Shown here: piece by piece, positions 1 through 6,392 of the stretch
Numbering within the stretch: position 1 is the first letter of the stretch
Layout of the letters: each line of letters begins with the position of its first letter
From: Rhodospirillaceae bacterium
GTDB lineage: Bacteria; Pseudomonadota; Alphaproteobacteria; Bin65
Direction: 5' to 3'
Assembly: GCA_011523655.1 (NCBI GenBank)
Contig: WTGH01000031.1
Span: 1 to 64,000 of the forward strand
DNA: 64,000 nucleotides
Translations under genes and position numbers: made by a program
Notes under the pieces: generated by a model
What the model saw: the letters and a program-made list of their open reading frames with translations, nothing else
Databases searched by the model: none
Told to the model about the DNA's origin: nothing

Positions 1-541
1 CGCCTTCGACCGGGGCTATGCGATCGAATCGACGTGCCATGCGCCGGACAAGGCGGGCGCGTTCGCCGAGATTTACCGCGTGCTGAAACCCGGCGCTCTC
101 TTCTGGGGTCAGGAAATGTGCCTGACGGACAGGTTCGATCCCGACGACAGCCGGCACCGGGCCATGAGGCAGGAACTGATGCACGGCATCGCGCTCAAGG
201 AAATCGCGACGACGGGCGAGGTCGATCGGGCGCTCGAAATTGCCGGGTTCCAAGTCATCGAGGGAAGCGACCTGGCCGTCGGGGAGAACGGTCCGGTCAC
301 GCCGTGGTACCGACCCATGGAGACCCGGCGCGGAACGGTTGGCAATGCCCTGCGCAGGACTCCGCTGGGCCGCAAGGCGTTCCTCGGGGCCTCCAGGCTG
401 GCCGAGATGGTGGGCGTTTTCCCGAAAGGCTCGACACATGTCGTCCGGCTGCTGGATCGCACCGCCGACGCCTATATCGCCGGTGGCAAAGCCGGAATCT
501 TCACGCCGTTGTATTGTTTCCTGGCGCGCAAGCCGCTTTAG
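1..541 (+). CDS. smt: Sterol C-24 methyltransferase (SMT/Erg6 family), 3' part only
   Basis: The gene enters from the left edge, open in frame from base 2, and 179 residues are visible. These enzymes transfer a methyl group from S-adenosylmethionine to C-24 of the sterol side chain. The fragment carries the SMT signature YAIESTCHAP (residues 6-15), matching YAIEATCHAP of yeast Erg6, then EIYRVLKPG. A PWYRP motif and a C-terminal AGGKAGIFTPLYCFLARKP follow, matching the sterol-methyltransferase C-terminal domain (Erg6 has AGGKSKLFTP and FVARKP). That C-terminal domain separates SMTs from generic methyltransferases such as tocopherol methyltransferase. Full-length SMTs have about 340-380 residues, so roughly half, including the SAM-binding glycine loop, lies outside the window. 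It converges on the P450 gene with 38 bases between the two stops. An internal ATG at 80 is not the start. SMTs are rare in bacteria. Substrate cannot be read from the fragment. Confidence 0.9.
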   Translation, partial: AFDRGYAIESTCHAPDKAGAFAEIYRVLKPGALFWGQEMCLTDRFDPDDSRHRAMRQELMHGIALKEIATTGEVDRALEIAGFQVIEGSDLAVGENGPVTPWYRPMETRRGTVGNALRRTPLGRKAFLGASRLAEMVGVFPKGSTHVVRLLDRTADAYIAGGKAGIFTPLYCFLARKPL

Positions 542-579
542 GCCCCAAGGTCCCCGCGCCCTGTCGCTCCCCTGTCGCG

Positions 580-2613
580 TCAGACGGGCAGTCCGCGCTT
601 CTGCTCTGCGATACGGAACTTCAGTTTCTTGCTCGGTTTCATCGACGGGAGCGGACTGAAGCTGAGCGAATCGGCATAGCTTGCGGGAGACACCTCGAGG
701 GTGAAGTGGTGCGCGATCATCAGCAGATTGACGGCCAGTTGCAGGTCCATCCACCGGTTGCCGAGGCAGGTGTGCGTACCCAGCCCGTAGGGCGCGTAGC
801 CGGGATCGCGGTGCTCGCTGCGCGCCGGCAGATAGCGGTCGACATCGAATGAGAAGGGGTCGGGGAAAACGTCTTCCATGTAGTGCGAAGCCGTTTGGGC
901 GATATAGACCCGCGACCCGACCGGTATTTCGTATCCCTCGACCACGAAGGTATTCATGACATCCCGCATGGACATCGGGACGATCGGGTACATGCGCAGG
1001 CATTCGGTGAGGAAGCGGTGCGTGAACTCGATCGCGGACGGGGTGAAATCTTCACCGTCCGGATCGCCGTTCTCGAACAGGGCATCGGCTTCGGCCCGGA
1101 TTTTCTCGTAGTGCTCGGGCTGCGACGCCATGGCGTAAACCGCGAAACTCAGCGCATCGCCGAGATACACGCTGGCAACCAGCGCAGCGGACAGGGCGAA
1201 GCGCAGGTTCGCCTCCGGCACCAGCTGCGGATCGCTCGCGTGCAGGCTCAGCCAGTCGTCGGTAAGGTTCCGCGGGCAGCCGACCCGCTGAGCCGGCGTA
1301 TGGACGCTTTGGACCCGTTCGAGCAGCGTGTCGACGGTTTTCGCCCGGCGCTTCATCCCCGGGGTATTCAGCATGAATTTGGGCAGGGCCTTGATGATGT
1401 GGGTGATGAGCGCACGCTCCTTGAAGGCCATCAGGTCGTCGATGATGTCCTGAGAATCGACGCTGATGAAAAGAGGCGAGAGCTGCGCGTTCACCATGCG
1501 CCGGCACAGGCGCGTCGCCTGGTAGGTTTCGCCAACCTTCCAATCGGCCATGTATTTGCGGACATAGTCGTAAACATGGTCAAGCTGACCGGCTAGCCGC
1601 CCGCGCGAATAGGCCGGCCCCATGGCCTTGCGTAGGCGGAAATGATCGGCGCCGTCCAGCGACGGCATGACCCCGTGCGCGCCGTAGATTTTCTCGAAGT
1701 CCGCAAAATAATTTCCGGCATTCAGGTGCATCCGCCCGTGCCGATGCACCCAGCGGTTCGTCTCCGGCCCGGCGAGAAAAATCATCGGTCTGCCGAACGG
1801 CACACGGACCTCGAAGACCGGGCCGTATTTTTTTGCGAGATCCGCAAAGACGGCGGGAATGTTGCCGTTGCGCAGATGAGGATTGAACAGCAAATCGCGC
1901 AGCGAAACCCGCTGAATTGGCTTGGTCAGAGCCGAATGCCGAAGCATCGGGCTGGCGATGGTGTGTTCGACCGCATCGGCTATGGAACGGCCGATCAGGT
2001 CCATCTTGCAGATTAATTCGATGCGCCGTTCCGCCTCGTCGTCGAGTTCGAATATAAAGCGAAACACGTCGCAAGTATTGACGAGGCAAACGACGATGAT
2101 GTCTCTCGGATCGGGAATCGTGTCGGTGAAGATGCACTCGCTGATGCGTGTTTTGATGAACTGACCTGCGGTGTCTTGCCGGTCATTGCCGTGCAGATCC
2201 GTGAACCAGTTGGTCGGGGCCAGCGTCCAGAAGTCGCCGTCGTGGTGGCTCAGGATCTTAAGATCGACCAGGCGGTCCAGGGTCAAATCGATAATCGACT
2301 CCGCCTGGATAGCGAACCGTTCGATCCAGTACTGGGCGTTGCGTTGCTCCGGTTCGTTCGCGATTTCCTCCAGAACGGGATCCAGGGTGGGGTTGCCCGT
2401 TTCTGTCCGGTCCACGAGGATCAGCGAATCCAGGTCCGTATCGATGCGCGACAGGAGGGAGAGTTCTGCCAGCACAGAACCGACAACGGCGCAGTTCAAT
2501 TCCCAGCCATGGACCTGGTAAAAATAGCCGGTCTCCTCGTTGAGGAGCATCAGGATGAGCTCTTCCGGGAGGCTCAGCGATTGCGTCGTCAATCCCTCGA
2601 CAGAATCGGGCAT
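580..2613 (-). CDS. GPP34 (GOLPH3-like) domain fused to a cytochrome P450
   Basis: This 677-residue protein has two parts. Residues about 12-225 resemble the GPP34/GOLPH3 fold, with LSLPEELILMLL near the N-terminus, the LAELSLLSRI pattern, TGNPTLD, a YWIE segment and DPRDI. In eukaryotes GOLPH3 binds phosphatidylinositol-4-phosphate on membranes; the role of bacterial GPP34 domains is not known to me. Residues about 245-660 form a P450: ExxR helix at E537-R540 (ECLR) and haem loop YGLGTHTCLG with the cysteine ligand at residue 616. The I-helix lacks the usual AGxDT oxygen-activation motif and reads VYLGDALS instead. The start at 2613 is chosen because AAGGAGG lies 8 bases upstream (2622-2628), although the frame stays open further upstream. 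There is no fused ferredoxin or reductase, so redox partners are elsewhere. Next to a sterol methyltransferase and a Rieske oxygenase, a sterol or triterpenoid hydroxylase/demethylase is the best inference. It is not clearly CYP51. Confidence 0.85.
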   Translation of the reverse strand: MPDSVEGLTTQSLSLPEELILMLLNEETGYFYQVHGWELNCAVVGSVLAELSLLSRIDTDLDSLILVDRTETGNPTLDPVLEEIANEPEQRNAQYWIERFAIQAESIIDLTLDRLVDLKILSHHDGDFWTLAPTNWFTDLHGNDRQDTAGQFIKTRISECIFTDTIPDPRDIIVVCLVNTCDVFRFIFELDDEAERRIELICKMDLIGRSIADAVEHTIASPMLRHSALTKPIQRVSLRDLLFNPHLRNGNIPAVFADLAKKYGPVFEVRVPFGRPMIFLAGPETNRWVHRHGRMHLNAGNYFADFEKIYGAHGVMPSLDGADHFRLRKAMGPAYSRGRLAGQLDHVYDYVRKYMADWKVGETYQATRLCRRMVNAQLSPLFISVDSQDIIDDLMAFKERALITHIIKALPKFMLNTPGMKRRAKTVDTLLERVQSVHTPAQRVGCPRNLTDDWLSLHASDPQLVPEANLRFALSAALVASVYLGDALSFAVYAMASQPEHYEKIRAEADALFENGDPDGEDFTPSAIEFTHRFLTECLRMYPIVPMSMRDVMNTFVVEGYEIPVGSRVYIAQTASHYMEDVFPDPFSFDVDRYLPARSEHRDPGYAPYGLGTHTCLGNRWMDLQLAVNLLMIAHHFTLEVSPASYADSLSFSPLPSMKPSKKLKFRIAEQKRGLPV

Positions 2614-2895
2614 CGGCCATGCCTCCTTGGGCCCGAAGCGGTGCGAATTCCGCGATCGGCACATTCGCAAGCCGCCGATACACCGCATCCGGAGATTTGA
2701 ACTGCTGTCGGCGTTCAATTCCAAAACCGAATGTCGGGCCCGGACAGACCGCCGTCAAGTCCGCAGAATTTGAGTTATCCGCGTCGATGCCTTCGCTGGT
2801 GAGGGCGATTCCGCATTTTGCGGGCCGGCAAACGACGGTCTCCTCCGGCCAGGTCTCCACGAACTCCGCCCGGCTCTTGCAGCGCCTCGCGCCGT

Positions 2896-3996
2896 TCAGC
2901 GGGTGCGAGAGGCCGGCTGCTTCTCCGTGCCGACGGAATGCCGATCCGCAGCTCGGGAGCCACAAAACTGGCCGTCCGGATAAAACTGCTCGCAATAGCG
3001 CCGGTATCTTCCGATCGGCCCGTCCGAAGCGCAGAGCATGGGGCGCGGCCGGTACCGTTTCCGGCTCCAGATCACGACGTCCTGCAACACGTCGTGCCTC
3101 TGGGCCGCCATGATGATCTTGTTCATGATCCGCGTGCGAAGGCGCGGCGGGAGAAAGCGCATCCCGACGATCGGCCGCTTCGGCCCGAGCAGTTGCCGGA
3201 CCTGGCTGACCAGCGTCATTTCCACGAGGTCGCCGTCGATCGGCGTTGCGAGCACCCACAAGCGGGTATCCATGCCGATATTGTGTTCGCGGACCTCGAC
3301 ATACGAATAGCCGAACCCGTGCACATGGGTGACGGCGGACACGTCGTAGGCGAAGACCTTTATCCCGGCGACGGTCTGGGTTCGCTTGAAGTCGAAGCAG
3401 CTCTTGAGCCAGGCGCCGTCGACCGATACCGGCCTGACCCCGCTTACGCTGTTATAGCCGTGGACATAGCGCAGATGCCCGAGATCGACGGAATTTTCCG
3501 TCGTTTCCTGGGGGTGGCCGGAGAACCGTACGCTCCAGGCTTCCATTCCGCACCAGTCGGAGCCGGCCGGCGGCGCTTCCGGAAGGTCCCATTGCGGCGG
3601 CCGGCCGCCGCTGCTCCACCAGGCGAAGATCAGGCCGAGAATATCGCGGGTCTCGAACACCTTGAGCCTGGCGGACCTGGGCGCCGGCGCATAGGGCGTG
3701 GCGACGCACTGGCCGGTGGCATCGAATTCGAAGCCGTGAAACGGACATACGAGGCAGCCGTCGCGGACCCGCCCGCCGGCTTCGGGGCCCAGATCGGAGC
3801 CCATATGCGGGCAGGTCGCTACGGCAACGCAGACGTCCCCGTCGTCGTTGCTCCAGACGACGATCCTTTCGCCGAGCCAGGTTTTCTGGAGCAGCTTTTC
3901 CTTCCCGATGGTTTCGCGGCGGGCGACGAAATACCAGCCCTCCGGAAACGGAAAAAGCTCGGCGGAGACATTGTGCTCGTTCGGATCGGTTTTCAT
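2896..3996 (-). CDS. Rieske [2Fe-2S] non-haem iron oxygenase, steroid/sterol-type
   Basis: The 366-residue protein has an N-terminal Rieske domain with CPH (C62, H64) and CPFH (C84, H87) binding the 2Fe-2S cluster. A catalytic domain follows with the mononuclear-iron motif ENSVDLGHLRYVH (N168, D171, H174, H179). The FPFPEGWYFVA opening and the spacing of the two motifs recall cholesterol 7-desaturase (DAF-36/Neverland), 3-ketosteroid 9-hydroxylase (KshA) and the Rieske enzyme of bacterial sterol C-4 demethylation. These all need an external reductase, and none is visible here. The start at 3996 gives a normal family N-terminus; an upstream extension open to 4257 is low-complexity and overlaps the divergent gene. 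It shares its strand with the P450 gene, 282 bases upstream of it, so they may be co-transcribed. A substrate related to the SMT product is inference. Confidence 0.87.
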   Translation of the reverse strand: MKTDPNEHNVSAELFPFPEGWYFVARRETIGKEKLLQKTWLGERIVVWSNDDGDVCVAVATCPHMGSDLGPEAGGRVRDGCLVCPFHGFEFDATGQCVATPYAPAPRSARLKVFETRDILGLIFAWWSSGGRPPQWDLPEAPPAGSDWCGMEAWSVRFSGHPQETTENSVDLGHLRYVHGYNSVSGVRPVSVDGAWLKSCFDFKRTQTVAGIKVFAYDVSAVTHVHGFGYSYVEVREHNIGMDTRLWVLATPIDGDLVEMTLVSQVRQLLGPKRPIVGMRFLPPRLRTRIMNKIIMAAQRHDVLQDVVIWSRKRYRPRPMLCASDGPIGRYRRYCEQFYPDGQFCGSRAADRHSVGTEKQPASRTR

Positions 3997-4237
3997 TTGC
4001 CGCGGATTTGCCCCGCTCCGAAAACTGCAGTTCCGCCGGCCGAACGGCCGGCTCGACCGCAGGGATATCGGGGCATGTATGGTATCGGGCAGTACAGGGC
4101 AATCGAATCCGCGCCGGAAATGCAAGTCCCGGACTCCCGGGACATCGGGCCCGCCTCTTCCTAAGTTCGGGAGTGAAGCCCGCACGCGGACGATGGTAAG
4201 GGTAGGTAATGCCACGAGCGATACGAGGTCTGCGGCG

Positions 4238-5596
4238 ATGCCGAGACGGGTTGCCATTGTCGGCGGAGGAATCTCGGGGCTGGGCGCTGCCTGGGCGCTG
4301 CATCGGCACCCCGACCGCTTCGAATTCCGGCTGTTCGAGGCGCAGGATCAGGTCGGCGGCAACGCGGTCACGGCCGACATGCCGCAGGACGACGGCACCT
4401 CGATCCCGTTCGATGTCTCCGTCACGGCGTGCATACCGTCGGTATACCACCACATTCTGCTTCTCATGCAGCAGCACGGTATCGAGCTGGTCGATACCAG
4501 ATTCAGTTACAGCGTGAAGTATCGCGGCGGCATCTACGCCCACGATTTCGCTTCGGACATCAGGAGGCAATTGCAACCGGAAATCGAGAAATTCCAGAGG
4601 CTCTTGCGGCGTCTGAAATGGTTTGGCCGGCTCAACCGGTCGAGATCCCGGCTGCTCAACGCGCTCAACCCCTTCAACTATGTCAGCATGGGGACCGTTC
4701 TCAACTTCGGCAGGTTTTCCGGCGATTTCAGGTACAAGATACTCAAACCCATGTTCGTCAATTTCCTGATGGCGACGAACGTGTTCGACATGCCGGCATC
4801 CCTTTTTGCCCGGTATCTGGAGTTTTTCGATATCGAAACCGCAACCCCGATGCAGACCTGGGACCGCGGTACGCGGCGCATTTATGAAAACCTGTCGGCC
4901 GAATTCCGGGACAGGATTTACCTCGGCCGGCCGGTCCGGAAAGTTTACCGGCGCCCGTCCGGGGTCGTCGTGGAGGATGAAAACGGAGACGAAGAAACGT
5001 TCGACGACGTCGTTTTCGCGTGCAACGCGAACCAGACGCTGATGATCCTGGACAAGCCGACCTTACTGGAGAGCTGGCTTCTCTCCTCGATCCGCTACGA
5101 GAGCGAACTGCACAACCATACGGTCGTTCATTCGGACGCCTCGGTTCTTCCGGACAACGAGGCCCGGCCGCTCGCCACCCGGAGCAACCATATCGAGCAG
5201 TATGGCGCCCGGCCGGACAACTACGAAATCACCTACATCATGCACAATCAGCAGCCTTGGGCGAACCTGTCGGACAAGCCCTGCCTGGTGACCTACAACC
5301 CGATCAGCCGGATCGACGACAACAAAATCGTCAAAAGATGGTGGTTCCAGCACATCGTGCACGACGTGCGGCACATCGCATTCCTGATCCACCTGTTCCG
5401 CTTCGTTCAGGGCAAACGGCGAACCTGGCACTGCGGCGCCCATACGCTCATCAACAGTCAGGAAACCTGTTTCGTGACCGGCCTCGTCACGGCAAGGCAG
5501 ATGGGCGCGGAGTACCCGTTCCGGGACTCCGAAGCGCGGAAGTGGTTCAATTTCTACGGGCGCACGATGTACGGCTGGCGCTTCCGGAAGGCGTGA
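4238..5596 (+). CDS. FAD-dependent oxidoreductase, amine-oxidase fold (COG2907-like)
   Basis: The 452-residue protein begins with a Rossmann dinucleotide-binding motif, VAIVGGGISGLGAAWAL (GGGISGLG at residues 9-16), an acidic end of strand 2 (E34), then QVGGN, as in flavin-containing amine oxidases, desaturases and protoporphyrinogen oxidase relatives. The middle (SVTACIPSVYHHI, FSYSVKYRGG) fits the COG2907 group of predicted NAD/FAD-binding proteins, often found beside cyclopropane-fatty-acid synthases. The chosen ATG follows GAGG by 9 bases and places the FAD motif at the N-terminus. An ATG 45 bases upstream is possible. It is divergent from the Rieske gene across about 240 bases that probably contain both promoters. 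In this neighbourhood a double-bond reductase, desaturase or alcohol oxidase acting on a sterol is plausible, but the reaction cannot be read from sequence. Confidence 0.8.
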   Translation: MPRRVAIVGGGISGLGAAWALHRHPDRFEFRLFEAQDQVGGNAVTADMPQDDGTSIPFDVSVTACIPSVYHHILLLMQQHGIELVDTRFSYSVKYRGGIYAHDFASDIRRQLQPEIEKFQRLLRRLKWFGRLNRSRSRLLNALNPFNYVSMGTVLNFGRFSGDFRYKILKPMFVNFLMATNVFDMPASLFARYLEFFDIETATPMQTWDRGTRRIYENLSAEFRDRIYLGRPVRKVYRRPSGVVVEDENGDEETFDDVVFACNANQTLMILDKPTLLESWLLSSIRYESELHNHTVVHSDASVLPDNEARPLATRSNHIEQYGARPDNYEITYIMHNQQPWANLSDKPCLVTYNPISRIDDNKIVKRWWFQHIVHDVRHIAFLIHLFRFVQGKRRTWHCGAHTLINSQETCFVTGLVTARQMGAEYPFRDSEARKWFNFYGRTMYGWRFRKA

Positions 5597-5633: not shown

Positions 5634-6392
5634 CTATCCCACCATGGAGTAGCCGCCGCTGATGCTGAGTATCTGGCCGGTGATCCAGCTTGCGCCGCCC
5701 GACGCCAGGAAGACGATGGCGGGCGCGACGTCCTCGGGCGTGCCGATCCGGCGCATGGGATATTGCCGGACGATCTTCTCGCGGTTCTTTTCCAGCCAGT
5801 TCGGGTCGGTGTGGGTGGTCTCGACATAGCCGAGCGCGACCGCGTTGACCGTAACGCCGGACGGGCCGAACTCCTGCGCCAGCGACTTGGTGAGCGACAG
5901 CACGCCTCCGCGCGCAGATGTCGTGACCGAAAGGGCCTTCCCGCCGATCCGCGCGGAATCGCCGGCGAGGTTGACAATGCGCCCGCCGCCTTGCTCGACC
6001 ATGCGGGCGCCGACCGCGCTGCAGCAATGAATCACGCCGTAGAGGCCGACATCGATCTGGCGTTTCCATTCCTCCGGGCCGGTGTCGAGGAAACGGCGCG
6101 GCTCGACATAGCCGGCGTTGTTCACCAGCACGTCGATCCGGCCGAAGTCGCCGACAATCGCCTCGGTCATGGCCTGGACAGACTCGAGGTCGGCGACATC
6201 CGCCTGGTAGGCCTTGGCCTTTCCCCCGTTCTCGGTAATTTCACCGACCACGCTGCCGGCGGCGTTTGCCGACCGGTTGTAGTTCACGGCCACGGTCGCG
6301 CCCTCCGCGGCGAAGGCCAGCGCGGTCTCGCGGCCGATGTCCCGGGCGCTGCCGGTGACCAGGGCGACCTTGCCTTCCAGATCAAGATTCAT
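5634..6392 (-). CDS. Short-chain dehydrogenase/reductase-like protein lacking the catalytic triad
   Basis: This 252-residue protein has the classical SDR fold. The cofactor motif TGSARDIG is at residues 13-20, NNAG at 91-94, and the C-terminus GQILSISGGYSMVG is normal for the family (close to BadH-type hydroxyacyl-CoA dehydrogenases). Aligning it by eye to NISSDAG...YSAAKGG of typical members, the catalytic Ser is Gly144, the Tyr is Thr157 and the Lys is Arg161 (VTTSARGG). All three active-site residues are replaced, so normal SDR hydride chemistry is unlikely. Its ATG overlaps the stop of the molybdopterin subunit gene (ATGA), and GGGAGA lies upstream, so it is translated as the last gene of the molybdenum-hydroxylase operon. 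The reading frame is intact, which argues against simple decay. It might bind CoA esters or NAD(P) structurally, but this is speculation. Confidence 0.88.
   Translation of the reverse strand: MNLDLEGKVALVTGSARDIGRETALAFAAEGATVAVNYNRSANAAGSVVGEITENGGKAKAYQADVADLESVQAMTEAIVGDFGRIDVLVNNAGYVEPRRFLDTGPEEWKRQIDVGLYGVIHCCSAVGARMVEQGGGRIVNLAGDSARIGGKALSVTTSARGGVLSLTKSLAQEFGPSGVTVNAVALGYVETTHTDPNWLEKNREKIVRQYPMRRIGTPEDVAPAIVFLASGGASWITGQILSISGGYSMVG

Follow-up and report, generated by a model that had tools for sequence, protein, structure and literature searches.

Does a bacterium with a cluster of sterol-type genes make sterols itself, or does it alter sterols made elsewhere? Sponge sterols with unusual side chains have been interpreted as the oldest fossil traces of animals, and the identity of the alkylating organism is disputed. 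We addressed the question for a locus at the edge of contig C24, of which bases 1-64000 were analysed (hereafter the window). The genome concerned (G000) amounts to 4.27 Mb and is 96% complete; with six genus mates (G001-G006) it gives a set of seven species. The nearest relatives of the bacterium appear to be inhabitants of sponges.

Layout of the locus

Bases 1-5596 of the window hold the 3' part of a sterol methyltransferase (SMT) gene, a gene for a cytochrome P450 fused to a GPP34 domain, a gene for a KshA-type Rieske oxygenase and one for an LkcE-like flavoprotein. A first-pass annotation had placed an SMT, a P450, a steroid-type Rieske oxygenase and a flavoprotein of the amine-oxidase fold side by side, and the frames and domains are as it described, apart from the GPP34 domain, which it missed. 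The SMT part (2-541, forward strand) encodes 179 residues. On the reverse strand follow the GPP34-P450 gene (580-2613; 677 residues from the likely ATG, in an open frame that reaches 2724) and the Rieske gene (2896-3996; 366 residues from the likely ATG, open frame 2896-4257); the flavoprotein gene (4238-5596; 452 residues, open frame 3848-5596) returns to the forward strand. With the likely true starts at 2613, 3996 and 4238, the Rieske and flavoprotein genes are divergent and about 240 bp apart, and the stretch between them (3997-4237) probably contains promoters.

The SMT gene is truncated by the contig edge. Contig C25, which carries the first half of the gene at its end (L005:19349-19900), terminates in the same 55 bases with which C24 starts, and joining the two contigs yields a complete SMT of 345 residues with an MMPL/RND transporter of 775 residues encoded upstream. 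The join is confirmed by the close relative G002, where a single contig carries ADH, enolase-like, RND, SMT, P450-GPP34, Rieske, flavoprotein and SDR genes with 93-100% identity to the window genome (93% for the unbroken SMT), and where comparison reveals no step in sequence divergence at the C25/C24 junction. Some of these genes do not belong to the conserved set. The SDR gene (5634-6392) was rejected as a member since no strong SDR match of at least 35% identity occurs in 80 loci, and the enolase-like and ADH genes that precede the transporter gene are not conserved, being shared among the genus mates by G002 only. The GC content of the cluster is 61.5%, against 67.7% in the remainder of the window; the count given earlier for bases 2041-2100, 27 G or C among 60, is correct.

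Domain content of the products

The SMT combines a SAM methyltransferase domain with Sterol_MT_C, as do C-24 sterol methyltransferases, and its 3' part scores 64.4 bits against the latter (cut-off 21.7). The SAM motif DVGCGIGG is conserved in the clade, as is IESTCHAPD. Region I is mostly FMVFGWG in this clade and YE(F/Y)GWG in the clade linked to oxidosqualene cyclase (OSC); compared with a YEYGWG-type motif, GWGxSLHF is retained and the glutamate is mostly replaced by valine (alanine in the window SMT). This replacement suggests that the substrate may differ from that of the OSC-linked SMTs, with which the window clade shares about 40-45% identity. In a tree constructed by a quick method, without non-sterol methyltransferases as root, the SMT belongs with the OSC-linked enzymes, and the grouping with non-sterol methyltransferases that the first-pass annotation had named as fatal to a sterol role was not seen. 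A second SMT in the genome, 40% identical, is encoded on contig C64 (L007:6664-8710), where its gene overlaps that of a second KshA-type Rieske protein; the pair is kept in G002.

The product of the P450 gene scores 124 bits for the p450 domain and 101 bits for GPP34, the latter at the N-terminus. In 67 of 73 copies a single open frame encodes both parts; several of the six exceptions are incomplete or duplicate sequences. Both the heme cysteine and ExxR are retained. The I-helix reads ASVYLGD, with the tyrosine invariant in the 73 copies, and aligns to AGHHTSS of Methylococcus capsulatus CYP51, so the AGxxTS-type motif of CYP51 is missing. Judged from this alignment, a tyrosine replacing the canonical acid-threonine pair could possibly indicate unusual P450 chemistry. 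The C-14 oxidation suggested earlier for this P450 is therefore unproven, the protein representing a separate GPP34-fused family that is devoid of the canonical I-helix threonine. We found no description of GPP34-P450 proteins in the literature searched, a body with few of the subscription papers.

The Rieske oxygenase contains the Rieske (65 bits) and KshA_C (90 bits) domains that characterize KshA, with complete ligand motifs across the family, and its nearest relative of solved structure is KshA. An assignment as SdmA was rejected, given a score of 29 bits compared with 401 for the SdmA-like gene of G001 and the presence of KshA_C rather than VanA_C; the C-4 demethylation that had been proposed for it consequently loses its support. 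The resemblance to KshA raises the idea that the set begins the breakdown of host sterols for carbon, the more so since steroid degraders and divergent KshA homologues have been reported from sponges (PMC5790920). We regard this as distinctly unlikely: the addition of carbon to the side chain by an SMT corresponds to no known catabolic step, we noticed no gene for ring degradation among the recurrent neighbours of the SMT loci, and the linkage of the genes is to OSC clusters.

The flavoprotein matches Amino_oxidase (75.7 bits) and LkcE (E = 5e-27 over 430 residues). Its predicted structure, with a pLDDT of 55 obtained from a shallow alignment, was set aside.

The 775-residue transporter scores 130 bits for MMPL and 27.4 bits for Sterol-sensing (cut-off 22.3). 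Its predicted structure (pLDDT 77) is matched by Foldseek to MmpL4/5, MmpL3, HpnN, NPC1 and NPC1L1, and also to AcrB-type pumps, with tied Z-scores. With drug pumps and lipid transporters both matching, the modelled fold would be compatible with either kind of cargo. Three types of RND protein adjoin the same SMT. The 775-residue MMPL type occurs mainly in Pseudomonadota, a longer MMPL type (825 residues), which also matches Sterol-sensing and Patched, in Chloroflexota, and an AcrB type for the most part in Gemmatimonadota and Acidobacteriota (examples of the three at L005:16974-19301, L024:7304-9781 and L041:11041-14220). The division mostly follows phylum, which would fit separate recruitment.

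Recurrence in other phyla

When 84,980 species genomes were scanned, 397 relatives of the SMT were confirmed. The best 80 of these 397, with SMTs 69-86% identical to that of the window, come from Chloroflexota, Gemmatimonadota, Pseudomonadota, Nitrospirota, Nitrospinota, Acidobacteriota and Actinomycetota, together with a Dadabacteria bin; judging by the bin names, from which the habitat is inferred, we take them to be mostly sponge metagenome bins. The gene set is thus found again in no fewer than eight phyla, in genomes that apparently belong to sponge symbionts. Among 51 SMT loci with full flanks, the P450 is present in 42, the Rieske oxygenase in 40, an RND transporter in 36 and the flavoprotein in 26.

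Between four phyla the flavoprotein retains 75-89% identity. FabI, encoded in the same window and used as a housekeeping control, is 91% identical within the genus and 42-50% identical to its counterparts in those Chloroflexota genomes that gave a match. Because the cross-phylum identities of the SMT and flavoprotein far exceed this control, we conclude that the spread has been largely horizontal, which bears out the earlier suggestion of horizontal acquisition. Consistent with this, the flavoprotein subfamily was found among 398 sampled Pseudomonadota genomes only in that of the window, the next match being 30% identical, and the starred branches of the quick SMT tree imply at least five changes of label for Chloroflexota, six for Pseudomonadota and three for Gemmatimonadota, a signal part of which mis-binning can mimic. 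One Chloroflexota bin, IRC4_bin_30 (L023, L042), has two different SMTs on contigs of unequal coverage; one of them groups with Paracoccaceae with full support, suggesting mis-binning or recent transfer.

In Nitrospirota and other phyla the same tailoring genes are located near an OSC gene. The OSC loci that we inspected contain, within a few kilobases, varying selections of genes for SMTs of both types, the flavoprotein, the Rieske oxygenase, P450-GPP34 or RND. This linkage places the tailoring genes in sterol metabolism and, with the Sterol_MT_C and KshA-type domains, upholds at the level of sequence the sterol-tailoring role first put forward. It also bears on the notion that the methyltransferase and the oxidases act on some other isoprenoid and yield a natural product, not a membrane sterol. 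Natural-product clusters do commonly contain LkcE-like flavoenzymes and P450s, and the mostly valine region I departs from the glutamate of OSC-linked SMTs. Set against the proximity of these genes to OSC in several phyla, a Sterol_MT_C score above the cut-off, 40-45% identity to OSC-linked SMTs and the fact that no terpene cyclase was noticed among the recurrent genes, such a product appears very improbable.

Several loci encode a fused epoxidase-cyclase in one frame of about 1130-1220 residues (L155:8438-12580, forward strand; also L122-L125 and L127-L133), with a squalene-epoxidase domain (PF08491, 73 bits) at the N-terminus, followed by an OSC with the DCTAE motif. The text of Kelly et al. 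(2022; PMC9531527) mentions neither such a fusion nor an epoxidase.

Cyclase genes, a proposed module and known systems

The first-pass annotation, which did not decide between the making and the editing of sterols, had expected squalene epoxidase and OSC genes to the left of the window. None was recognized in the 20 kb of contig C25 next to the junction, and the whole window genome has no OSC or SHC cyclase domain detectable with the PF13243 and PF13249 profiles and no detectable ERG24. A squalene epoxidase profile gives a weak partial match in this genome, and E. coli scores with the same profile too. Genes for squalene/phytoene synthase are retained.

The genus is divided in this respect. 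OSC, SHC and ERG24 were not found in G000, G002 and G004, each about 96% complete, while an OSC with the DCTAE motif and ERG24 are both present in G001, G003, G005 and G006. Within the genus the window-type SMT is confined to the three species lacking OSC; G001, G003 and G005 have SMTs of the other type exclusively, and those of G006 are fragments, closer to the other type or not assignable. Fisher's test for the split of OSC and SMT type gives p = 0.029, for seven species that are not independent of one another. The OSC cluster of G001 includes SdmB-like and SdmA-like genes, ERG24, a P450 and an SMT of the other type. In G001 the RND gene (93% identical) adjoins P450-GPP34 (69%) with 139 bp between them, and there is no SMT at the position that it occupies in the window genome. 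The first-pass annotation would have given up its reading had the neighbours turned up in unrelated operons without an SMT. That was not observed: genus mates without this SMT do have the neighbours, but in OSC-bearing genomes. Among the genus mates an SHC-like cyclase occurs in G006 alone (contig C173; 374 bits to SQHop_cyclase_N), and the two squalene/phytoene synthase genes on the same contig make this a likely hopanoid locus.

Among 50 carriers of the window-type SMT, eight have an OSC-type match (about 176-191 bits) and 42 have none; many of the same 50 give SHC-type matches above 420 bits. In most carriers, therefore, the tailoring genes would work without a cyclase.

The absence of a detectable cyclase or ERG24 favours the editing of exogenous sterols. 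We consider it somewhat probable that the locus is a mobile module for uptake and tailoring of sterols made elsewhere, in a cell that does not synthesize the skeleton. Some observations count against it. The genomes are metagenome-assembled, and genes common to many symbionts break assemblies, as has happened at the contig edge of the window; the eight carriers with OSC indicate that the module is not exclusive to non-makers; and the squalene/phytoene synthase genes are kept. The fragmentation and the synthase genes, together with the closeness of OSC in some carriers of other phyla, would also suit a cell that makes sterols de novo, in which the OSC cluster was lost in assembly or binning and the genes perform the late steps of a full pathway. 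We find that unlikely, for OSC and ERG24 are jointly absent from three genomes of about 96% completeness and jointly present in the other four, and 42 of the 50 carriers lack OSC even though SHC is readily detected in many of them.

For the uptake-and-tailoring module we infer a substrate, a series of reactions and their order, a direction of transport and a product as follows. In a cell unable to make a sterol skeleton, sterols would be taken from the sponge host or from OSC-bearing neighbour bacteria, and the RND transporter would shuttle them between the membrane and the periplasm or outer membrane. The SMT would use SAM to place a methyl group onto the side chain at or beside C-24. The Rieske enzyme and GPP34-P450, the latter possibly tethered to the membrane by GPP34, may then oxidize the ring or side chain, and the flavoenzyme may introduce or shift a double bond. 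The product would probably serve the bacterium's own membrane or be returned to the holobiont.

If this is correct, bacteria could be a source of alkylated steranes even where they lack a sterol cyclase, and the tasks of sterol metabolism would seem to be divided among the members of one holobiont. The module supplies four conserved enzymes for study, one of them a GPP34-fused P450 with an unusual I-helix. A wider and more speculative proposal, which we hold to be rather doubtful, is that a shared, horizontally moving set allows sponge-dwelling members of at least eight bacterial phyla to edit sterols they cannot make, that sister species have diverged, some being makers by virtue of an OSC cluster and others editors by virtue of the module, and that the valine-type SMT clade might carry out an unassigned sponge sterol alkylation such as C-26 methylation.

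Parts of this picture are known, namely the activity of bacterial SMTs (Brown et al., 2023; PMC10070321), the horizontal movement of steroid clusters among symbionts of sponges (Kelly et al., 2022) and the occurrence of steroid degraders within sponges (PMC5790920). The literature searched, the coverage of which excludes most subscription papers, yielded no account of the OSC-less module, of its composition or of the division of a genus into makers and editors. Brown et al. (2023) described SMT homologues from uncultured bacteria including sponge symbionts, several of which methylate desmosterol and three of which form 24-isopropyl side chains in vitro. In their work methylation of host sterols was already indicated by one SMT, which came from a Chlamydiae MAG with no other sterol genes; their emphasis is on de novo clusters with OSC, and no Rieske gene or transporter is named. 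Kelly et al. (2022) reported sterol genes in ten phyla of Ircinia sponge symbionts with evidence of horizontal transfer. The core of their cluster type, which G001, G003, G005 and G006 carry, is ERG24-CYP51-OSC flanked by an SMT. The window module, in contrast, has neither OSC nor ERG24, its SMT is of another clade, and it includes P450-GPP34, the KshA-type Rieske oxygenase, the flavoprotein and RND.

The individual proteins can be compared with known systems in the same way. In the BstA/BstB/BstC system of M. capsulatus (PMC10942540) an MMPL/RND protein lies beside sterol genes, as the transporter does in the window module. BstA binds C-4 methyl sterols and occurs with OSC and sdmAB in sterol makers, whereas the window transporter is likened to it by superfamily and position. 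LkcE, an amine/amide oxidase, is of the same FAD fold family as the window flavoprotein and matches it over most of its length, yet the latter forms a separate subfamily. KshA, the 3-ketosteroid 9alpha-hydroxylase, shares the Rieske and KshA_C domains with the window enzyme, the genes of which are linked not to ring degradation but to SMT and OSC.
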